Origin: Thermus brockianus
Lineage (GTDB): Bacteria > Deinococcota > Deinococci > Deinococcales > Thermaceae
Reading direction: 5' to 3'
DNA length: 64,000 nt
NCBI RefSeq assembly: GCF_001880325.1
Contig: NZ_CP016312.1
Location: forward strand, 372,001 to 436,000
A model generated the notes under the pieces. That model saw only the letters and a list, made by a program, of their open reading frames with translations. It ran no database searches and had not been told where the DNA came from. The position numbers and the translations under genes were made by a program. Position 1 is the stretch's first letter; every line of letters starts with the position of its first letter. Shown piece after piece: positions 19,088 through 45,241 of this stretch.

Positions 19088-19930
19088 CTAGCGCCCGGGG
19101 GGAAGCAGGGTGAGGGTATCTCCCTCGGCCAAGAGGGTGGCCAGGCCCTTTAGGTAGCGCACGTCCCGGCCGTTTAAGAGGACGGCGAAACGGGGGCGGA
19201 GGCGCCAAAGGGTTTTGGGCTCCAACCAAAGCCCCACCGCCTCCTCGGCAAAGAGGGGCTCTAGGGAAACGTCCCTTAGGGCGGGGAAGGCGGTATACAC
19301 CTTGCGCAAGGCCTCCTCCACGCTACCCGCCCGCAGGGAAAGGGGCTTGGGCAAGGCGGGGTAGGCCAGGCCTAGGGCCTGGAAGCGGACGGAAACCCCT
19401 CCTTCCCGTAGGGCCAGGGCGGCGTCAAAGCCTTTGCGCATCACCTCCTCTTGGGCGGAGAGGTAGACGAGCCACGGGCGGACGTCCCCCACCCTTTCCG
19501 CCACGTACCGCCCCACCTGGGCGAAGGAAAGGCCCACGTACTCCGGGGGGATGTAGGCCCCCTTGGGCCCCAGGCCCCCGTGCCAAAGCCCGGCCCGGTA
19601 GACCTCCCGGGCGAACTCCGCCGAAGTGTCCACCCCCAGGGTGCGCGCCAACCAGGCGGCGAAAAAAGCCCGCCTAAGGTAAAGCTCCCCCTCGGGCACC
19701 CGTCCTTCCCAGCCTAAGGCCCTGGCCGTGCCGGGGTGGCGGCTTAGGTGCTCGTAAACCTCGGCCACGAAGCGGGAAGCCCCCTCCAGAAGCCGCTCCG
19801 TATCCAGGCGCATGCCCCGCTTGGCCTCCTCGGTAAGCCCCCCAAAGGCCAAGAGGTCCTGGAAAACCTCCTCGGGCAAGGGGGGTAGCTCTAGCGCAAG
19901 GGTTTCCACCCCCACCTCTACCGGCTTCAC
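19088..19930 (-). CDS. Globin (protoglobin-like) fused to a MoaD/ThiS-like ubiquitin fold
   Basis: A 280-residue cytoplasmic protein. Residues 20-170 resemble the globin domain of protoglobins and globin-coupled sensors, with His117 (YRAGLWHGGLG) in the position of the haem-binding proximal His. Residues 181-280 resemble MoaD, the sulfur carrier for molybdopterin: GSVEEALRKVY, VLLNGRDVRYLKGL, AEGDTLTLLPP. The protein ends PPGR instead of the Gly-Gly tail that MoaD needs for thiocarboxylation, so the domain is probably a binding module. The start is the GTG at 19930, with GGAGG upstream and overlap with the preceding stop (GTGA). A haem NO/O2 sensor or dioxygenase that contacts the molybdenum-cofactor machinery or NarG is a hypothesis only. 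Confidence 0.75.
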   Translation of the reverse strand: MKPVEVGVETLALELPPLPEEVFQDLLAFGGLTEEAKRGMRLDTERLLEGASRFVAEVYEHLSRHPGTARALGWEGRVPEGELYLRRAFFAAWLARTLGVDTSAEFAREVYRAGLWHGGLGPKGAYIPPEYVGLSFAQVGRYVAERVGDVRPWLVYLSAQEEVMRKGFDAALALREGGVSVRFQALGLAYPALPKPLSLRAGSVEEALRKVYTAFPALRDVSLEPLFAEEAVGLWLEPKTLWRLRPRFAVLLNGRDVRYLKGLATLLAEGDTLTLLPPGR

Positions 19931-20364
19931 GCCTTCCTCCTTTCCCGCTCCTCGCGCATTTTCCTCAGCATATCCGCCGTCACCACCCGCTTGCCCATGG
20001 CGTGGGCGAATACCAAGGTGGCGAGAAGCTGCAAGGCCCCCCCAAGGGCAAGCCAGGGGCGAAGCCCCTCGTGGCCCATAAGGTAGAGGGGCTCCAAGGC
20101 AAGCCGCAGGAGGAGCCCGGCGTTGAGGAGGGAAAAGGTCAGGGCCTCGAGGGCCTCCTGCCGAAGCCCGCCAGGCCTGGGCATCATCCAGTAAGCCACG
20201 CCCATGACCATCTGCAAGAAAAACCCCACGAGGCCTGCGTGCACGTGGCTTGGACGAAAGGGGCCCACCAGGGAAGGAAAAAGGTAAAAGAGGCTTCCCA
20301 GGAGGGCGGTGTACACCAGGTACAAAAGAGCCGCCCGCACGAAGAGGAAGTGCCAAAAACCCAT
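19927..20364 (-). CDS. Small haem-copper-oxidase-like membrane protein
   Basis: A 145-residue protein with about four membrane helices. HVHAGLVGFFLQMVMGVAYW, followed by MMPR, in the second helix closely resembles a helix of subunit I of haem-copper oxidases and NO reductases (His, Gly-Phe-Phe, Gly-x2-Tyr, Pro). A related protein lies at 44864-45241. The start shares bases with the stop of the upstream DUF1858/DUF2249 gene (TAATG). It may carry haem between NO-related proteins or be a stand-alone haem-binding subunit; the function is unknown. Confidence 0.75.
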   Translation of the reverse strand: MGFWHFLFVRAALLYLVYTALLGSLFYLFPSLVGPFRPSHVHAGLVGFFLQMVMGVAYWMMPRPGGLRQEALEALTFSLLNAGLLLRLALEPLYLMGHEGLRPWLALGGALQLLATLVFAHAMGKRVVTADMLRKMREERERRKA

Positions 20365-21484: not shown

Positions 21485-22816
21485 TCAACAGGGCTTCTCC
21501 GCCCCCTTACGGGCATAGTAGTACCAGTTCAGGAAGAGGTTCAGAGCGTAGAAGACCATGAGGCCGTAGAAAAAGGCGGTAAAGCCCCCCGTGGCCTTTT
21601 GGGTGTAAGCGGCTAGTGTGGAGAAGATAAAGGGCCCGTAAGCGCCGATGGCCGCCGTCCAGCCGATCACCCCACCCGCCTGCCTGGGGGGGAAGATCAT
21701 GGGCATCTGCTTAAAGGTGCTGGCGTTGCCCACCCCGCTAAAGAAGAAGACCAGGAGCATGGCCAGCACAAAGAAAGGGAATTGTTCCAAGGACGTAGGG
21801 CGGGTGAAGAGGGTAACCAGGAGGGCCGAAAGGAAGATGCCCATGGCGGCCACCTGGGTCACGATGGCCCCGCCGAAGCGGTCCGTAACGGGCCCGGCCA
21901 TCACCCGGGCCAAGGAACCCACCAGGGGCCCAAGGAAGGCATAGCGCAAGGGATCGGGGGCGCCATCAAACTTCCCGTAGACCTCCCGGATGAGCAGGGG
22001 GAAGATGGCGGAAAAGCCCGAGAAGGAACCGAAGGTCATGATGTAGAGGCTGGTCATGATCCAGGTGTGCTTATCCCGGAAAATGTCCAGCTGCTCGCGG
22101 AAGTTGGCCCGCACTGGGACGCTCCGCAAAAAGGTCCAGGCAAGCCAGGCTCCCACCAGCACAAAGGGAATCCAAACAAACGTGGCGTTTTGCAACCAGA
22201 TGGGCTGGCTGACGCCAGGCTTAGGGGTAAAGGTCTGGGAACTCCCCAGCAGGGAACTGGAGAGGGCAAAGCCGATGACCCAAGGGGTTACGAACTGCAC
22301 CACGGAAACCCCAAAGTTGCCGATCCCCGCCTGCAAGCCCAAGGCCGTTCCCTGTAGGCGTTTGGGGAAGAAGTAGCTGGTGGAGGGCATGAAGCCGGAA
22401 AAGTTCCCTCCGCCCACGCCGGCCAAAAAGGCGAGCAGGAGGAGAACCCAGTAGGGAGTATTCGGGTTCTGAACGGCGAAGCCCCAGCCCAATAACGGCA
22501 CAAGGAGGAGCAAGGTGGAAAACGTCACGAGATGCCGGGTGCCCAGGATAGGCGGTAGGAAGGTCCAAACGATGCGCAACGTCCCTCCCGCCAACCCCGG
22601 CATGGCGGTGAGCCAGAAAAGCTGGGTCGTGTCCAAGGGGAAGCCGGACTTGGGCAGGCGCACCACCAGGGCGCTCACCACGTACCAGGTGATGAAAGAG
22701 AGGGTGAGGTTGAAGGTGGTGATCCAAAGGGTGCGCCAGGCCAAGGCAGGGTCCCAGCGCTTGGGATCCTCGGGATCCCACTCTTTGAGCCAGGTGCCTT
22801 TGAGGGTCTTGATCAT
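21485..22816 (-). CDS. narK2: Nitrate/nitrite transporter NarK2 (NarT) type
   Basis: A 443-residue major facilitator protein with about 12 membrane helices. The two NarK nitrate-signature-like Gly-rich stretches are visible: GVGGGNFSGFMPSTSYFFP near residue 133 and FSGVGNASTFKQMP near 370. It is the last gene of the narCGHJI-K1-K2 operon, overlapping narK1 by 4 nt (ATGA). In Thermus two NarK paralogues have been linked to nitrate uptake and nitrite export. If narK1 is truly frameshifted, this would be the only intact nar-linked transporter. Confidence 0.9.
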   Translation of the reverse strand: MIKTLKGTWLKEWDPEDPKRWDPALAWRTLWITTFNLTLSFITWYVVSALVVRLPKSGFPLDTTQLFWLTAMPGLAGGTLRIVWTFLPPILGTRHLVTFSTLLLLVPLLGWGFAVQNPNTPYWVLLLLAFLAGVGGGNFSGFMPSTSYFFPKRLQGTALGLQAGIGNFGVSVVQFVTPWVIGFALSSSLLGSSQTFTPKPGVSQPIWLQNATFVWIPFVLVGAWLAWTFLRSVPVRANFREQLDIFRDKHTWIMTSLYIMTFGSFSGFSAIFPLLIREVYGKFDGAPDPLRYAFLGPLVGSLARVMAGPVTDRFGGAIVTQVAAMGIFLSALLVTLFTRPTSLEQFPFFVLAMLLVFFFSGVGNASTFKQMPMIFPPRQAGGVIGWTAAIGAYGPFIFSTLAAYTQKATGGFTAFFYGLMVFYALNLFLNWYYYARKGAEKPC

Positions 22817-24140
22817 GGCCGGTCTCCTTTGAGTTCAAAATCGTGCTTGAGGTGCTTGGCCTCCTCTTGGAGAAGTTTGATCACCGTGAGGTGCATCCAA
22901 AGGAAGGCGAGGGCGGTGAGGACGAAGAGCACGAAGAAGGTCATCTGGGGAAGTCCTGTCCAAGCCTGGGCGTAGGCGAAAAGAGGCGGGAGGAAGAAAC
23001 CCCCCAAAGCCCCAAGCATCCCCACCAATCCCCCCACCGCTCCCACGTCCTGAGGGAAGTAGGTGGGGATGTGCTTGTAGACCGCCGCCTTACCGATGCC
23101 CATCCCCACCCCGATGAGGAAGACCAGAAGGGTGAACAGCCAGACGTTCATGGTAAAGCGCATAACCTCCTTGGTCCCCCCTTGGTGTAGAGGACGATGT
23201 GCCCTTCGGGCATCATGAGGATGCCCGAGGCGAGGAGGATGATGCCGAAGGTCCAGTACATGACCCGCCGGGCCCCAAGCCGGTCGGAGAAGTAGCCACC
23301 CACGGGGCGGAGGAGACTCGCTGGGAAGATGAAAAGGGCGGTGAGGAGCGCGGCTTCGTGCAACGGTAGACCGAAGACATCCACGTAGTACTTGGGGAGC
23401 CAAGCGGACAACGCCACGTAAGCGCCGAAGACCACCACGTAGTAGAGGCTGAAGCGCCAGACCCGCACGTACCTGAGAGGCCTAAGCATCTCCAAGAAAG
23501 GCCTTCCCTGCCCTGGGCGCTTGTCTTGCCGGGGGGTGCCGAACCACAGCGCCAGGCCCATGAGGATCAGAAGGATGCTGTAGAGGAAGGGGATGAAGCG
23601 CCAACCCCCAGGGATGAGCCCCCCCAGATACCCGGCAGGCGGGATACTGGCGATGAGGGCAGGGCCGATGAACTTGGTGAGGCTGGCCCCCACGTTCCCC
23701 GCCCCGAAGACCCCTAGAGCGAACCCCTGTTGCTCCTTGGGGAACCAAGCGGAGTTCCAAGCGATACCCACACTGAAGCTGTTCCCGGCAAAGCCCACCA
23801 AGAAGGCGTAGAGAAGTAGCTCCTCGTAGCTTCCGGCGCGGGACACCAGGTAGGCGGGGATGGCGGTGAAGAAGAGCATCAGGGTGAAGACCAGCCGTCC
23901 CCCGTAGCGGTCAGCAAAGATGCCCGCCAAGAGACGCCACAAGGAACCATTCAGAATGGCCACCGCTGAGAGCCAGGAAAGCTGCACATCCGTGAGGCCA
24001 AACTCCTTACGGATGGGCACGCCCAGCACCCCGAACATCAGCCAGACGGCGAACATCAGGGTGAAGGCCAAGGTGGAAAGCCAAAGGACGCGGAGCCGCT
24101 CCGGCTTTTCCCTTTCCAGTTGCGCAGGGTCATGGACCAT
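22813..24140 (-). pseudogene. narK1: Nitrate/nitrite transporter NarK1, with an apparent -1 frameshift
   Basis: The 5' frame encodes a NarK-type transporter up to PEGHIVLYTK and then runs out of frame, stopping at 23148. The remaining C-terminal part (TKEVMRFTMNVW onward, about four helices) continues in another frame to 22813. The break is in a run of six C on the plus strand (23176-23181, G on the coding strand); seven would restore one frame of about 442 residues. NarK-type features include GFAGNSFSVGIAWNSAWFP. The downstream narK2 start overlaps the restored stop, which supports an originally intact gene. Either the strain has lost NarK1, or the homopolymer was miscounted in sequencing. 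Confidence 0.82.
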
Positions 24141-39058: not shown

Positions 39059-40423
39059 CTAGTGCGTGGGGGAGTGGGCCTTTTGCTCGGCGGGCGCGTA
39101 CACCCGGATCACACCCTTCATGTAGGGGTGGATGCTGCAGATGTAGGTGTACTCCCCGGGCTGGGTAAAGGTGATGCGGTACCGCTCCCCGTGACCCAGC
39201 TTGGGGGTAACAAAAGGCTCGGGCCCTTGGACGTTGATGACCACGGCATCATGCCGTCCCGTGCGCTCTCCTTCCAAGAGGTCAAAGACGTCCTCGTTGA
39301 CAAACTCCACTGTAGTTCCCACAGGGATTTCTAAGATTTTCGGGTAGAAGGAGTTGCCCACCATTTGTACCCGCACAGGTAAGGGCTCCAGGGCCTTCGC
39401 TCCCACGGCCACGGGTTGGGTCAAGGCGGGGTCCAGGGGCATGCGCACCGTGTGCTCGTGATCAGGGGTTCCCAGGCCGTAGGGGTCCAGTACCCGCTTC
39501 GCATCCGCAGGGATGGCGGTGAGGGCCTTCGGTCCCTCTGCCGGCACCGCGCGCACCCGCGGGGCATCCTTCTTTGCCCGCAAAATTCCCACGGCCCCCT
39601 TGATGGCGGTATTGAACACGTGGGTCACCAGGGTGTAGTCCCCCTCCACCGGAGGTACCCGCCACTCAATAACCCAGGAGTCCGAAGGGCCTGCCAACAC
39701 GGTCTGGCTTCCTTTCATGACGTTGTCCGGGTTGCCTTGGTAGTAGATGTACTCCCAAACGCCCCCCACCACGTGGAAGGTGCTGGTGAGGCTGGGACCG
39801 GCGTTAAGGAAGTAAATGCGAATGTAGTCGCCCGGCCGCACGGGAATAGGCTCGTTGACGTAGCGGAAGTTGTACCCGTTAAAAACCACGTAGGTAGCCT
39901 TGCCATCAAAGAAGTCCCTTCCCGAAGCGTACCACTCGCTCTGGACGATGTAGAGCTTGAGGTCAGGTGGGCGCTTGAGCTCAGCCTCGAGGCGGTACTT
40001 CTTCTTCGGCTCCACCACGATCATGCCGTGCTGACCACCCATGGTATGGGCCATAATCCCGTGCCCACCCGGGGCGCAGTGGTACATGAAGACACCTGGG
40101 AAGTCAGCGGTGAAACGGAAGACCCGTTCCTCCCCGGGCTGGACGTTGCCCAGGAATTTGGAGGTCTGGGTGTTGGCGGCGTGGATGGAAAGCCCATGGG
40201 CTACGCTATCCACATTCTTCAGAACGATTTCCACCGTGTCGCCTTCCTCCACCACCAACATGGGCCCCGGGCTCATGCCGTTAAAGGAGAACCCCTTTAC
40301 GTAAACCCCCTCGTCCACGGGGAATACACTGCTTTGCGCCGTCAGCTCAAAACGCTTGACCGCCGCTAGGGCAGGCACCCCCAGGGCCACCGCCGCCATC
40401 AGTAAGAACCTTGCGCCTTTCAT
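39059..40423 (-). CDS. nirK: Three-domain copper nitrite reductase
   Basis: A 454-residue periplasmic enzyme with a signal peptide (1-20), two cupredoxin domains and an extra C-terminal cupredoxin domain (about 350-445). Type 2 copper ligands are His81, His115 and His268; type 1 ligands are His76, Cys116 and His126. The axial Met of ordinary NirK is Gln131, and the usual catalytic Asp is Ser79 (HGLSIH); the second catalytic His is His217. The third domain has its own type 1 site: His391, Cys429, His432, Met435. All this matches the atypical NirK described from Thermus scotoductus. It reduces nitrite to NO. The ribosome binding site is GGAGGTGAG. Confidence 0.92.
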   Translation of the reverse strand: MKGARFLLMAAVALGVPALAAVKRFELTAQSSVFPVDEGVYVKGFSFNGMSPGPMLVVEEGDTVEIVLKNVDSVAHGLSIHAANTQTSKFLGNVQPGEERVFRFTADFPGVFMYHCAPGGHGIMAHTMGGQHGMIVVEPKKKYRLEAELKRPPDLKLYIVQSEWYASGRDFFDGKATYVVFNGYNFRYVNEPIPVRPGDYIRIYFLNAGPSLTSTFHVVGGVWEYIYYQGNPDNVMKGSQTVLAGPSDSWVIEWRVPPVEGDYTLVTHVFNTAIKGAVGILRAKKDAPRVRAVPAEGPKALTAIPADAKRVLDPYGLGTPDHEHTVRMPLDPALTQPVAVGAKALEPLPVRVQMVGNSFYPKILEIPVGTTVEFVNEDVFDLLEGERTGRHDAVVINVQGPEPFVTPKLGHGERYRITFTQPGEYTYICSIHPYMKGVIRVYAPAEQKAHSPTH

Positions 40424-40595: not shown

Positions 40596-40979
40596 ATGCG
40601 GCTCGTTTACCTTATACTCGGCCTACTCTTCGCCGGGTTTGGCTTTTTGGGGACCGTGCTTCCCGTCCTCCCCGCCACCCCCTTTTTTCTGGTGGCGGTA
40701 TATCTTTTTTCCCGTAGCCACCCGGGCTTGGAACGTTGGCTTCTCTCCTTGCCCAGGATCGGCACTCTGCTCCAGAGCTACCGCGAAGGCCGCGGCATAC
40801 CCCTCAACACCAAGCGCCTAGCTACCGGCATGGCCTTGGTAGCGGCGCTTTTCAGCACCCTTAGCCTCCCCCACCCTTGGATCCGGGCCCTCGTCTTCCT
40901 CCTCGTCGCCTATGGGGTCCATTTCCTTTGGTGGCGGGTCCCCACCCTAGCGCCGCAAGAAGGCCCAAAACACCAATAA
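40596..40979 (+). CDS. DUF454 (YbaN-like) inner membrane protein
   Basis: A 127-residue membrane protein of the DUF454 family: LGLLFAGFGFLGTVLPVLPA followed by TPFFLVAVYLFSRSHPGLERW, with three to four helices. The function of the family is unknown; members are often found near haem and respiratory genes. The ATG at 40596 is leaderless (TAGACT, 7 nt). It is divergent from nirK, and its 3' end overlaps the convergent membrane protein gene by 33 bp. Confidence 0.82.
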   Translation: MRLVYLILGLLFAGFGFLGTVLPVLPATPFFLVAVYLFSRSHPGLERWLLSLPRIGTLLQSYREGRGIPLNTKRLATGMALVAALFSTLSLPHPWIRALVFLLVAYGVHFLWWRVPTLAPQEGPKHQ

Positions 40980-41390
40980 CTCCCACAGGGCCAAAAACCC
41001 GCCCAAAGGATCCCAGGCCGCCCGGCCTCCCCAGGCTAGGCCGTAGGGCGTGGGAAGGGGCAGGCCAAGGAGCCTCGAGGCCAGGTAGAACGCCGCAAGG
41101 CTTAAGGCCAAAAGCGCCGAAGAGGCCCGGAGCAAGGTTCCCAGACCACCCCTCAAAGCCTCCGGCAGTACCAAACTGAGGAAAAGAAGGGTATAGCCTA
41201 GACCCCCCTGAAGGATTAGCCCCCACAACAAAACGCTTTCGTAGAAAAAGGCTTCCGCCGCACCCCCATAAGCCCTTTGTCCTAGGCTTGCCAACAGGTC
41301 CCCGCAAAACCCCTTCCAGCCCAACCCTGCACCCAAACTCTGTAGGTGAGCCGGCAAGAGGGCCATCAGGGAAGGAAGCCACAAGGGCAT
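40947..41390 (-). CDS. Hypothetical membrane protein divergent from the haem-copper operon
   Basis: A 147-residue protein with about three hydrophobic helices (about 50-75, 85-108, 128-147). I do not recognise the family. Support for it being real: TAAACT (41402-41397), 6 nt and ATG give a leaderless promoter, and the gene fills an otherwise empty stretch between the DUF454 gene and the haem-copper enzyme operon. An accessory role for the enzyme encoded next door is possible but unproven. Confidence 0.6.
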   Translation of the reverse strand: MPLWLPSLMALLPAHLQSLGAGLGWKGFCGDLLASLGQRAYGGAAEAFFYESVLLWGLILQGGLGYTLLFLSLVLPEALRGGLGTLLRASSALLALSLAAFYLASRLLGLPLPTPYGLAWGGRAAWDPLGGFLALWELLVFWAFLRR

Positions 41391-41396
41391 AGACCA

Positions 41397-41455
41397 AGTT
41401 TAGGGGACCCCCCAGGGACTTTTGTACTTGACGCCCCCCCAGCTTTTCATAAAAC
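41397..41455. promoter_or_regulatory. Divergent promoters of the haem-copper operon and the membrane protein
   Basis: Rightward: TTGACG (41428-41433) and TAAAAC (41450-41455), spaced 16 bp. Leftward: TAAACT (41402-41397 on the minus strand) 6 nt before the ATG at 41390. A C7 run (41434-41440) follows the -35. Confidence 0.55.
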
Positions 41456-41490
41456 TCGGATGTGTAGGTCGTAGTTAAAGGAGGTGGCAC

Positions 41491-41616
41491 ATGCCCGAAA
41501 AGGAACACTGGCTCTTAGACAACCCCTGGCTCCTCCTCGGCATCCACGTGGTCCTCTTTGTCGGCCTCTACCTCGTGTGGGGTTGGCTGGACATCAGCCG
41601 TATCCCTAGGCCTTAA
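41491..41616 (+). CDS. Small single-helix subunit of the haem-copper enzyme
   Basis: A 41-residue protein with one transmembrane helix (about residues 12-32) and a charged N-terminus, MPEKEHW. It has AAAGGAGGTGG before its ATG and lies 10 nt upstream of the subunit II gene. B-family (ba3-type) oxidases contain a one-helix subunit IIa of similar size and gene position, so this is probably its counterpart. Confidence 0.75.
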   Translation: MPEKEHWLLDNPWLLLGIHVVLFVGLYLVWGWLDISRIPRP

Positions 41617-41626
41617 GGAGGTTTCC

Positions 41627-42169
41627 ATGGCCCTCTATCCTCCCAAGGACTGGCAAAACGAATCCGTTGCTCGCGAAGAGCGAATTTGGTTGACCCTGGC
41701 TGCCCTCTTCGCCATCGTTTTCCTATCCGCCTTCATGGGCATATGGCACCTCACGGGCCGCCAAACCACCCATGGCGAGGCATACCGGGTAGATCCCCAG
41801 GCTTATCGGCAAAAGGTCTTGGAGTTTACAGAATTGCATCGCGTGGGGGAGCTAAACGGAATCCCCGTAGTGGCTCCACCTCCTGGAGACATTTACCTCA
41901 TGGCCCAAGCCTTCAGCTGGTACCCTGTCCTAAAGCTTAAAGAGGGGGAAACCTACAGGCTCCACGTAGGCTCTGTGGATTTCCCCCACGGCTTTAGCCT
42001 TTACCCCCACGAGTGGAGCCTCCAGCTTTACCCGGGATACGAGTGGGTATACACTTTTAAGCCCACCAAGGCCGGCGAATACACCCTCGTCTGCAACGAC
42101 TATTGCGGTTTAGGACACCATACCATGCTAGGAAGAATCCTGGTGGAGAAGGAGCAGTCAAGGAGGTGA
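41627..42169 (+). CDS. CuA-containing subunit II of a haem-copper oxidase/NO reductase
   Basis: A 180-residue protein with one N-terminal membrane helix (about 20-42) and a periplasmic cupredoxin domain. The CuA ligands are His121 (DFPHGF), Cys156, Cys160, His164 and Met167 in CNDYCGLGHHTM. It takes electrons from a cytochrome or cupredoxin and passes them to subunit I. The ATG at 41627 has AAGGAGG upstream. It is shaped like B-family (ba3-type) subunit II. Context and subunit I changes suggest NO reduction. Confidence 0.9.
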   Translation: MALYPPKDWQNESVAREERIWLTLAALFAIVFLSAFMGIWHLTGRQTTHGEAYRVDPQAYRQKVLEFTELHRVGELNGIPVVAPPPGDIYLMAQAFSWYPVLKLKEGETYRLHVGSVDFPHGFSLYPHEWSLQLYPGYEWVYTFKPTKAGEYTLVCNDYCGLGHHTMLGRILVEKEQSRR

Positions 42170-42172
42170 ACC

Positions 42173-43858
42173 GTGGCCCTGCCTCTAGAACGCACGTGCC
42201 CTGCCACAGGGCTTAGGCTCTTTGGCGTTGCCGAAACCCTGGTCCGGTGGAACGCCGTAGCTGCTGTGGTCTTCCTGCTTTTGGGTTTTCTCTGGGTAAT
42301 CCCCACCACCTTGAACCGGGTTCTTGGGCCAGAAGTGGTTTCCCCCAACCTGTACTATCAGGCTACCTTCCTGCACGGCTGGAACATGCTCATTTTCTGG
42401 ATCCTCTTCTTTGAGGTGGCCCTCCTCTACTTTGCCGCTTCCGCCATTCTCAAAACGCCCTTGGCCCTGCCCCAGCTCGCGTGGGGAGGGTTCGGGCTCA
42501 TGCTAGGCGGGGCGGTCCTCATCAACTACCTGGGCATGGCCCAGCCCCTTTCGTTCCTGCCCTTTACCCCCTATGTGCCCCTAAAGGCCCCCCCTCTTTT
42601 CTACCTAGCGGTCCTCCTCTTCGCCGTGGGTGCCATCTTGGCCGTCTGCGTTTTCTTCCTCACCCTCCACCGCGCCTGGAAAACAAAGGTCTACGGCCCC
42701 TCTATGCCCCTAGCCGCTTTCGGAGCACTCACCGCCGCCATCCTGGCCACCACCACCCTCCTCTCGGGAGCGATCGCTTTCATCCCCGCTTTTCTCTGGT
42801 CCTTAGGCCTCCTACCGAGCTTAGATCCCTTGTGGTGGCGGCACACCTACTGGGGTTTCGGCCACGGAGCCCAACAGGTCAACCTGGCCGCCATGGTCAC
42901 CGCTTGGTACCTCCTGGCCCTCTTCACCGTGGGGGGCACAACTCCAAGCGAGAGGCTATCCCGCATTGCGTTTCTGCTTTACCTGCTAGGGATTAACCTG
43001 GGCTCGGCTCACCACCTCCTCACCGAACCGACGGGGGCGCTCTCTAGCGCCTGGACCTGGGTGAACACCGGCTACCTCATCCATGTGGCCGTTCTGGGAA
43101 GCTTGATTCATGCCTTTTCCGTGCCTGCAGCCATTGAACGCGGGTTGCGCATGAAGGGCTTTACCCAGGGGCTTTTCACCTGGCTCCTTCGCGCCCCTTG
43201 GGGGAATCCCGGTTTCTCCGCCCTTTTCCTTTCTGTAGTCCTCTTCGGCCTGCTGGGCGGCGTAAGCGGGGTAACCATGGGTTCCTACGACATGAACCTG
43301 AAGTGGCACAATACCCTGGCCGTGGTAGGCCACTTCAAGGGGACAGTGGTGGTGGGAACGAGTCTCGCTTTTATGGGGCTGACCTACTACCTCCTTCCGC
43401 TTCTTTTCCGCCGGAAAGTGGTTTTGCCGCGCCTGGCCGCCTGGCAACCTTGGCTCTTCGGCCTAGGGATGGCCTTGCTTTCCCTAGCGATGATGCGCCT
43501 TGGTGTGGTCTACGGCCTCCCCCGGCGGTTCGGAGATACTTTCCAGTTTGGGGGAAGCCCCTTTGGCTTCGCTTACCCCCCGGAGGCTTCTACCCTTCTT
43601 GCCGCCATGGGCATTGGCGGTGCGCTGTCCCTGGCAGGGGGGCTGCTCTTTGTCCTTCTGGTGGTGGGCTCGCTCTTTGGGGGCAAACGGCTAAGCGATG
43701 AGGAGATTCGCCTCACCTACGCCGTGCGCTCCGAGGAAGGCCCCGCCACCCCCAAAGGCGTTTACCTGCTCGCCCTGCTCTTTCTCGCCTTCTTCCTCCT
43801 GTACTATCTTTACAACCACTACTTCCTTTCCCAAGCGTGGCCCATCGGCATCCGGTAA
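42173..43858 (+). CDS. Haem-copper oxidase-family subunit I, probable nitric oxide reductase
   Basis: A 561-residue protein with about 13-14 helices, closest to B-family (ba3-type) subunit I. His68 (FLHGW) is a low-spin haem ligand; His231, His280 and His281 are the active-site metal ligands; His387 is the high-spin haem ligand. Two changes stand out. The Tyr that is cross-linked in O2 reductases (H-P-x-x-Y) is Gln235 (HGAQQ), and the second His of HFH, the other low-spin haem ligand, is Lys389 (HFKGT). Loss of the Tyr is typical of CuA-type NO reductases that evolved from B-family oxidases. It follows nirK and precedes an NsrR-like regulator. The start is GTG after AAGGAGGTG. Confidence 0.88.
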   Translation: MALPLERTCPATGLRLFGVAETLVRWNAVAAVVFLLLGFLWVIPTTLNRVLGPEVVSPNLYYQATFLHGWNMLIFWILFFEVALLYFAASAILKTPLALPQLAWGGFGLMLGGAVLINYLGMAQPLSFLPFTPYVPLKAPPLFYLAVLLFAVGAILAVCVFFLTLHRAWKTKVYGPSMPLAAFGALTAAILATTTLLSGAIAFIPAFLWSLGLLPSLDPLWWRHTYWGFGHGAQQVNLAAMVTAWYLLALFTVGGTTPSERLSRIAFLLYLLGINLGSAHHLLTEPTGALSSAWTWVNTGYLIHVAVLGSLIHAFSVPAAIERGLRMKGFTQGLFTWLLRAPWGNPGFSALFLSVVLFGLLGGVSGVTMGSYDMNLKWHNTLAVVGHFKGTVVVGTSLAFMGLTYYLLPLLFRRKVVLPRLAAWQPWLFGLGMALLSLAMMRLGVVYGLPRRFGDTFQFGGSPFGFAYPPEASTLLAAMGIGGALSLAGGLLFVLLVVGSLFGGKRLSDEEIRLTYAVRSEEGPATPKGVYLLALLFLAFFLLYYLYNHYFLSQAWPIGIR

Positions 43859-43909: not shown

Positions 43910-44326
43910 ATGCCCGTGCGCAGCCTTCTTCGGCGGGAAGAGTCCTATGCCCTCCATGCCCTCCTCCTTTTGGCGGAGGAACCCGGCCTATCCGCAATGG
44001 AGATCGCCCAAAAACTCAAGGCTCCACCTGCCTTCATGGCCAAGGTGCTTTCCAAGCTGGCCAAGGCGGGGCTGGTGGAAAGCCGGATGGGACGTGCGGG
44101 AGGGGTATGGCTCAAAGGCACCCCTGAAGAGATTAGCCTCCTCAAGGTCATGGAGACCCTCTCTGGCCCCGTGGCCCTGGACCTCTGCGCCACCCTAAAA
44201 CGCTGTCCCACCGAGGAGAGGCGGGGCGTCTGCTACCTCAAGCCCAACCTGGTGCGCATGAACCTAGAAATCCGGAAAGCCCTAGGGAGCCTCACCCTTA
44301 AGGACCTCCTTCCCGAAAAGGTTTGA
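43910..44326 (+). CDS. Rrf2-family regulator, NsrR-like
   Basis: A 138-residue winged-helix regulator. The helix-turn-helix covers LSAMEIAQKLKAPPAFMAKV and the wing GRAGGVWL, followed by the Rrf2 dimer helix. Three Cys in CATLKRC and GVC (C-x5-C-x8-C) sit where NsrR and IscR hold an Fe-S cluster, so NO or redox sensing is likely. It is leaderless: TACCAT (43898-43903), 6 nt, ATG. Its stop overlaps the CRP/FNR-type site of the next transcript. It probably represses NO-response genes nearby. Confidence 0.85.
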   Translation: MPVRSLLRREESYALHALLLLAEEPGLSAMEIAQKLKAPPAFMAKVLSKLAKAGLVESRMGRAGGVWLKGTPEEISLLKVMETLSGPVALDLCATLKRCPTEERRGVCYLKPNLVRMNLEIRKALGSLTLKDLLPEKV

Positions 44327-44364
44327 CCCAGGTCATGGCCCCGCCCACCCTTATCCCCCAGGCT
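44323..44364 (+). promoter_or_regulatory. Leaderless promoter with CRP/FNR-geometry site (centre -41.5)
   Basis: TTGACCCAGGTCAT (44323-44336), centre 44329.5, is exactly 41.5 bp before the ATG at 44371. CAGGCT (44359-44364) is the -10, followed by AAGGGC and the ATG. Confidence 0.72.
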
Positions 44365-44370
44365 AAGGGC

Positions 44371-44574
44371 ATGGAAGGAATCGCCCTGACGACCCCGGTC
44401 AACGAGATCTTGCGGCGTTACCCGGAAGCGGTGCGGCTTCTGAGCGGGCTTGGCCTGGACACCTGCTGCGGCGGAGCTGAGCCCCTGGAGGAAGCGGCCA
44501 GGCAGGCAGGGCGGGACCCCATAGAGGTCCTGAACGCCTTAACAAACTTCCTGCAAAAGGAGGTGCGCCAATGA
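44371..44574 (+). CDS. DUF542 protein (RIC/ScdA N-terminal domain)
   Basis: A 67-residue protein consisting only of the DUF542 domain found at the N-terminus of the RIC/ScdA di-iron proteins that repair Fe-S clusters after NO damage. The signature LGLDTCCGG is present. The haemerythrin part is absent. I chose the ATG at 44371 because it fits the leaderless promoter with the activator site at -41.5; an in-frame ATG at 44323-type position is inside that site. It overlaps the cupin gene by 4 nt (ATGA). Confidence 0.85.
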   Translation: MEGIALTTPVNEILRRYPEAVRLLSGLGLDTCCGGAEPLEEAARQAGRDPIEVLNALTNFLQKEVRQ

Positions 44575-44867
44575 ACCTGCGAGAAAAGGCCCGCTATGGG
44601 GCGGTGCGGGGTGTGGAACTTCTGGCCGACTACCCCGAGGTGCGACTGGTCCTCTTCAGCCTGCAAGGGGGCCAAGAGGTGCGGGGGAGGGGGGAGCCTC
44701 GAGTCCACCTCCTCTGCCTGGAAGGAGAGGGCACCCTCTTCGCTGGGGAACGGGAGGTCCTGGCCCGGCCAGGCACGCTCCTGGACGCCTCCCCAGGCGA
44801 GCCCCACGGGGCGCGGGCCGACCAGGGGCGTTTTTTGGTCCTCGGCATCATCACCCCCCACCCATGA
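44571..44867 (+). CDS. Small cupin-domain protein
   Basis: A 98-residue single-cupin protein: GGQEVRGRGEPRVHLLCLEG, then GEREVLARPGTLLDASPGEPHGARA. One His of the usual metal set (His in GEPHG) is clear and the first motif is reduced. It is coupled to the DUF542 gene and the small haem-copper-like membrane protein by ATGA overlaps, so the three make one NO-response transcript. The function is not known. Confidence 0.8.
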   Translation: MNLREKARYGAVRGVELLADYPEVRLVLFSLQGGQEVRGRGEPRVHLLCLEGEGTLFAGEREVLARPGTLLDASPGEPHGARADQGRFLVLGIITPHP

Positions 44868-45241
44868 TCCCCGCAAGCCGCCTGGCCCTGACCAGCGCCC
44901 TCTTTTGGTTCCTGGTAGCCAACCTCCTCGGTGTTCTAATGGGGCTTGGCGCCCTACCCCTTACCTGGAAACCGGCCCATGCCCATACGCAACTTTTAGG
45001 CTTTGTGAGCCTCATGATCTACGGCGTGGCCTACCACGCCCTGCCCCGGTTTCGGGGCGTGGTCTTCCGACGGCCTGGGCTTGCTCTCTTTCAGGTGGGT
45101 CTCGCCAACCTAGGGCTTCTGGGCATGGCCTTGGGTTGGGGGTTGGCTTGGGGCCCAACCCTTTGGGGGGTCTTCGCCGGGGTTTCTGCTGTGGCCGGGC
45201 TTCTTTTCGCCTTGTTGATGCTGGAGGTGCTGTGGGGCTAA
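44864..45241 (+). CDS. Small haem-copper-oxidase-like membrane protein
   Basis: A 125-residue protein with about four helices. HAHTQLLGFVSLMIYGVAYH, followed by ALPRF, resembles the helix with HVHAGLVGFF at 19927-20364 and helices of subunit I of NO reductases and cbb3 oxidases. The start overlaps the cupin stop (ATGA). It is expected to be co-activated with DUF542 by the CRP/FNR-type site upstream. It may bind haem; the role is unknown. Confidence 0.75.
   Translation: MIPASRLALTSALFWFLVANLLGVLMGLGALPLTWKPAHAHTQLLGFVSLMIYGVAYHALPRFRGVVFRRPGLALFQVGLANLGLLGMALGWGLAWGPTLWGVFAGVSAVAGLLFALLMLEVLWG

Follow-up and report, generated by a model that had tools for sequence, protein, structure and literature searches.

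The operon at positions 41491–43858 of the window, by which we mean the whole 64,000-nucleotide stretch of Thermus brockianus DNA that was analysed (source genome of 2,388,273 bases in three contigs), most likely encodes a CuA NO reductase that belongs to the eNOR family but has a changed haem ligand. The change is found at residue 389 of the catalytic subunit, where Lys occupies the position of an axial His of the low-spin haem. This ligand-site change is real, has occurred more than once and, to the extent that we could check, has no earlier description, and we consider that Lys389 is probably a true axial ligand of that haem. The operon, its key codons and the neighbouring genes are listed here by window position.

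39059–40423, minus strand: NirK, copper nitrite reductase that forms NO, transcribed divergently to the eNOR genes (TIGR02376, 1.8e-44, below cut-off)
40947–41390, minus strand: 147-aa membrane protein with no Pfam or NCBIfam match, found in all Thermus eNOR loci examined (69–97% identity)
41418–41490, plus strand: promoter-like conserved block upstream of the operon (GGACWTTTGTACTTGAC, CAAAACTnnGAnnnGTAnnTC; eight-copy Thermus alignment)
41491–41616, plus strand: first operon gene, for a small subunit of 41 aa with one helix that resembles subunit IIa (ORF; sequence MPEKEHWLLDNPWLLLGIHVVLFVGLYLVWGWLDISRIPRP)
41627–42169, plus strand: eNOR subunit II with CuA domain (C-N-D-Y-C-x3-H-x2-M and an upstream His)
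42173–43858, plus strand: eNOR subunit I, haem-copper catalytic subunit of 561 aa (GTG start; PF00115, 3.8e-53)
42875–42877, plus strand: Gln235 codon at the cross-linked Tyr position (ba3 Tyr237), the eNOR hallmark (HGAQQ; PMC8756737)
43331–43333, plus strand: His387 codon, high-spin haem proximal ligand (ba3 His384; from alignment)
43337–43339, plus strand: AAG codon of Lys389, which aligns with the axial His of the low-spin haem (ba3 His386; HFKGT)
43910–44326, plus strand: nsrR, Rrf2-family regulator (PF02082, 3e-28)
44323–44574, plus strand: nsrS, DUF542/ScdA_N-domain protein (PF04405, 5e-12)
44571–44867, plus strand: nsrT, AraC-type cupin domain protein (PF02311, 8e-5)

The operon starts at 41491 with the ATG of the 41-aa subunit, which was absent from the first-pass annotation of this DNA. 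Annotations of three other loci (L031, L032 and L035) list the small protein as a CDS of its own, further Thermus copies have it too, with or without annotation, and a small ORF of the eNOR locus in Defluviimonas (L034) matches it at 41%. Subunit II is CoxB-like (NCBIfam TIGR02866, E 5e-9, under the family cut-off), and T. thermophilus plasmid records label it cytochrome oxidase subunit II; it is a cupredoxin CuA subunit encoded in the same operon as subunit I and carries a complete set of CuA residues (CNDYCGLGHHTM and DFPHG), and the C-x3-C-x3-H-x2-M motif is kept in all eNOR loci examined. Subunit I scores 181 bits against the COX1 Pfam model PF00115 (cut-off 34.8), which establishes it as a haem-copper homolog, and retains five of the six conserved His ligands of haem-copper proteins, with Lys389 in place of the sixth. 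Because the homology is clear and only five of these His residues are present, we call it a variant within the haem-copper superfamily, to be distinguished from the typical proteins of that group.

These assignments come from an alignment to the ba3 oxidase of the same genome, free of gaps at these motifs, in which His68, His231, His280, His281 and His387 of subunit I align with ba3 His72, His233, His282, His283 and His384, while Gln235 pairs with Tyr237 and Lys389 with His386. All seven of these positions had been named correctly in the first-pass annotation, and the full CuA site that it described in subunit II is indeed there. The two enzymes share their fold, CuA and alignable CuB and proximal haem ligands at about 26% identity, and differ in having Tyr237 and His386 in the oxidase but Gln235 and Lys389 in the Thermus eNOR. 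The Thermus ba3 enzyme is a B-family O2 reductase (structures 1EHK and 1XME). Where the B family has HPxxY, with the Tyr cross-linked to a CuB His, subunit I reads HGAQQ, and Gln235 is found in all 31 of the eNORs in our final set (used for residue columns and trees) whereas Tyr is found in all B-family O2 reductases compared. Nor does the complex resemble the cNORs, which are defined by a NorC partner and an active site of the NorB type that includes Glu, as here Gln235 is accompanied by a CuA subunit; and the residue at the Tyr site also differs from those of sNOR, gNOR and CuANOR (bNOR), which have Asn, Asp or Asn, respectively (PMC8756737 table).

A phylogenetic analysis placed subunit I amongst the eNORs, which form one clade apart from the B-family O2 reductases (support 100/100, in trees without the family's published reference sequences added by name). 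The family name is reportedly associated with Hemp and Gennis 2008. In the literature eNOR is defined by Gln at the Tyr site and a Thermus protein, WP_015717644.1, sits in the published eNOR tree (PMC8756737), and so the Tyr-to-Gln change is a known hallmark of the family and is not new. WP_015717644.1 is almost surely an ortholog of the window subunit I, since the haem-copper subunit I proteins of 27 Thermus genomes are limited to a few kinds, namely caa3-type and other long A-family-like oxidases, ba3, NorB, eNOR and small fragments. The published eNORs, including that of Ardenticatena maritima (PMC8756737; PMC4653789), share with the Thermus operon the Tyr-site Gln, a CuA subunit II, a haem-copper subunit I and proximity to NirK, but the low-spin His of helix X is kept in the eNORs we compared outside Thermus and one other lineage (L050 and L072, see below), whereas Thermus has Lys. 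The Thermus eNORs are sister to those of Armatimonadota (100/100) and not to five proteins from another family of Thermus's own order (L042–L046), and this suggests that eNOR was acquired by Thermus through horizontal transfer. The latter five constitute a distinct eNOR clade with HFH, and eNOR probably entered the order more than once.

Genome content points to NO as the substrate of the Thermus eNOR, and we regard this as very likely. When NirK and NirS were called at the family cut-off in 27 Thermus genomes, NirK was found in nine, NirS in 16 and either in 18. Seven of the nir-positive genomes have eNOR and 11 have NorB (broken in one), with both in one genome; thus eNOR or NorB is present in 17/18 genomes with nirK or nirS and in 0/9 without (Fisher p 2e-6, a statistic that ignores kinship), and the two occur together in only 1/18 (exclusion p 0.0025, also ignoring kinship), with eNOR in place of cNOR in six genomes. 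For three of the NorB proteins the motifs HLWVE and HGH verified the assignment, which for the rest was deduced from score, length and place. The Thermus cNOR (norCBH) has the same probable function and genomic place as eNOR but is a separate family, with an HxxxE-type NorB active site and HGH in helix X. In the source genome the other haem-copper proteins are caa3 and ba3, and no NorB was found. It is improbable that the operon instead encodes a ba3-like O2 reductase with an altered active site that happens to lie within a denitrification cluster: while public annotation names the protein cytochrome oxidase subunit I, and it is homologous to B-family O2 reductases, the Tyr of all O2 reductases compared has been replaced, among Thermus genomes eNOR is confined to the nitrite reducers, in which it and cNOR hardly ever occur together, the genome already has caa3 and ba3, and the operon adjoins nsrRST and nirK.

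The first-pass annotation had also read the complex as an NO reductase, which the genomic context and census support, although part of this reading had already been published (PMC8756737, PMC7694296). In T. thermophilus NAR1, 'cbcBA' genes were suggested to use NO, and nsrR, which is NO-responsive in T. thermophilus, lies with nsrST directly downstream of them; these genes, also reported beside nsrRST in T. scotoductus, are the same as ours in kind and place, but the excerpted text of that paper makes no eNOR assignment and mentions neither Gln235 nor Lys389 (PMC7694296). For nir-positive, nor-negative Thermus strains NO has been proposed as the end product, yet N2O formation was recorded for three strains of T. 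antranikianii, in which no nor gene was found, and for a single strain of T. brockianus (PMC9270275). We find eNOR with HFK, and no NorB, in a genome that we assign by inference to T. antranikianii (G004), and a 97% identical eNOR with HFK in T. brockianus YIM 77927 (L025). The latter strain is listed as lacking nor. Against the NO-reductase reading, N2O went undetected in three of the four T. brockianus strains, YIM 77927 apparently being one of them, and this strain seems to be among those that consumed nitrate with no detectable nitrite, N2O or N2, a phenotype that was read as NO accumulation (PMC9270275). The Thermus eNOR would supply the NO reductase missing from nir-positive, nor-negative genomes, some of which make N2O, and toxic NO would then no longer have to be assumed as the end product of all such strains. 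N2O acts as a greenhouse gas, and eNOR-type genes usually carry cytochrome oxidase annotations.

The Lys itself is a fixed feature of the Thermus enzymes. HFK is found in 10/10 Thermus sources (seven genomes and three T. thermophilus plasmids, at 83–97% protein identity), and the residue which follows varies (HFKGT, HFKAT and HFKST) while the Lys is constant. Pairwise comparisons of the other Thermus copies with the window copy give dN/dS values of 0.05–0.11 at dS 0.26–1.13, and subunit I is under strong purifying selection; together with the ten HFK sources, this means that Lys389 is not the result of chance or sequencing error. It is also very improbable that Lys389 is a damaging mutation in an unused gene and the operon a decaying or silent relic. 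Such a view could draw on the absence of N2O from T. brockianus YIM 77927 (PMC9270275), on a plasmid copy cut by a transposase (L036) and on the broken NirK of T. thermophilus NAR1 (PMC7694296), but the low dN/dS persists at dS values of up to about 1.1, the three-gene operon is intact, its upstream block is conserved, Lys is fixed in all copies, and it has a second origin elsewhere.

This second origin is seen in L050 and L072, two eNORs from a small candidate phylum with HFK and about 49% identity to the window subunit I. Their Lys codon is AAA, as opposed to AAG in Thermus, and a protein from the same genus (L073) has HFH with the His codon CAC; five Armatimonadota relatives (about 57% identity) and the B-family oxidases compared also have HFH. 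Forcing all Lys eNORs into one clade lowered the log-likelihood by 76.9, and a single Lys clade of Thermus with L050 and L072 is rejected (AU p 8.2e-5). Lys at column 389 thus very probably arose twice independently from His, with the alternative of one early gain followed by losses needing more steps. At no column other than 389 do the two Lys lineages share a residue that all His eNORs lack. A possible co-change may involve Trp50, which is present in 20/21 His-type eNORs but is Val in Thermus and His in L050 and L072. In the locus around L050 (L074), genes for an SCO1-like copper chaperone and a cytochrome b/ferredoxin protein come after the Lys-type eNOR, much as in the Defluviimonas locus.

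The low-spin haem has a pair of His ligands in every other haem-copper protein compared, and the possibility raised in the first-pass annotation, that another His might have taken over the low-spin role, is not borne out: a search of the alignment columns for replacement ligands found no position at which both Lys lineages had gained a His, Met or Cys. Three Thermus-specific residues (His224, His304 and His549) were rejected as candidates as they have no counterpart in the second lineage, where a different His is found (His50); His224 takes the place of Leu or Thr in the helix carrying His231 and aligns with no low-spin haem ligand. The missing sixth-ligand His and the absence of a shared replacement would also fit an NO-reducing eNOR with no six-coordinate low-spin haem, in which Lys389 is unbound, the site has either no haem or one that is five-coordinate through His68, and electrons reach the active site from CuA by a different route. 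We think this unlikely, as the two independent changes were both to Lys, which is capable of binding iron, and not to varied residues, His68 and the PRR motif are retained, and His-to-Lys changes in cytochrome bc1 leave a low-spin haem in place (PMC4807273). An AlphaFold2 model built with six sequences had a mean pLDDT of 51, which is too poor for a fold search or the placement of Lys389.

The bc1 precedent is the H212K and H198K mutants of Rhodobacter capsulatus, in which the low-spin haem was kept with Em raised by 50–155 mV (PMC4807273). They have in common with the Thermus eNOR a His-to-Lys change at a transmembrane haem b ligand, but were engineered or selected in the laboratory, with function kept, whereas the Thermus Lys is natural. 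The bc1 authors, writing in 2016, knew of no integral membrane protein in which Lys naturally ligates an internal haem, and expected natural membrane His-Lys haems to await identification (PMC4807273). The literature that we searched, a set to which the main 2024 eNOR paper did not belong, yielded no later report of such a haem, no description of Lys389, and no assay or spectrum for an eNOR of the Lys type. That paper, reportedly in PNAS, is one in which a mention of the Lys is possible. The first-pass annotation had held that a Lys-ligated or missing low-spin haem would be new, and for the Lys this stands in so far as we found no prior natural membrane case, while the accompanying Tyr-to-Gln change was already published. 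On the present alignments we lean towards a natural His/Lys low-spin haem in an integral membrane haem-copper NO reductase, evolved at least twice from a bis-His form; if the ligand is natural, this would be the case that the bc1 authors predicted should exist (PMC4807273), and the matched His and Lys relatives amongst the eNORs could be used for tests of the effect of the ligand on haem potential and NO turnover.

The working model that we somewhat favour is of a three-subunit CuA eNOR with its low-spin haem on His68 and Lys389 which removes NirK-derived NO. Electrons from a periplasmic carrier would enter at CuA in subunit II, pass to the low-spin haem and from there to the centre formed by the high-spin haem (His387) and CuB (His231, His280 and His281), where, with Gln235 in place of the redox Tyr, two NO would be converted to N2O. 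As the sole NO reductase found in the genome, the enzyme would clear NO from the neighbouring NirK, probably under the control of nsrR.

Several further observations concern the surrounding region. NirK is 94–97% identical in the other Thermus eNOR loci, and the 147-aa membrane protein lies between nirK/ybaN and the eNOR operon, overlapping the end of ybaN. Upstream of the operon, GGACWTTTGTACTTGAC followed by CAAAACT is conserved in eight Thermus copies and may be a promoter or regulator site. The operon has been lost in some strains, and in the T. thermophilus SNM3-3 plasmid (L036) a transposase sits ahead of the final 161 residues of subunit I, and there is no subunit II. A search of viral contigs gave no match. 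The narK1 gene (22813–24140, minus strand) appears frameshifted here: it is split into two MFS pieces that lie in different frames, and comparison with the gene of T. thermophilus NAR1, which is intact, shows a gap of one base. Finally, proteins of 125 aa (44864–45241, plus strand) and 145 aa (19927–20364, minus strand) have weak matches to the C-terminal part of COX1 (PF00115), and a homolog of the former is found near the eNOR of another phylum (L079).
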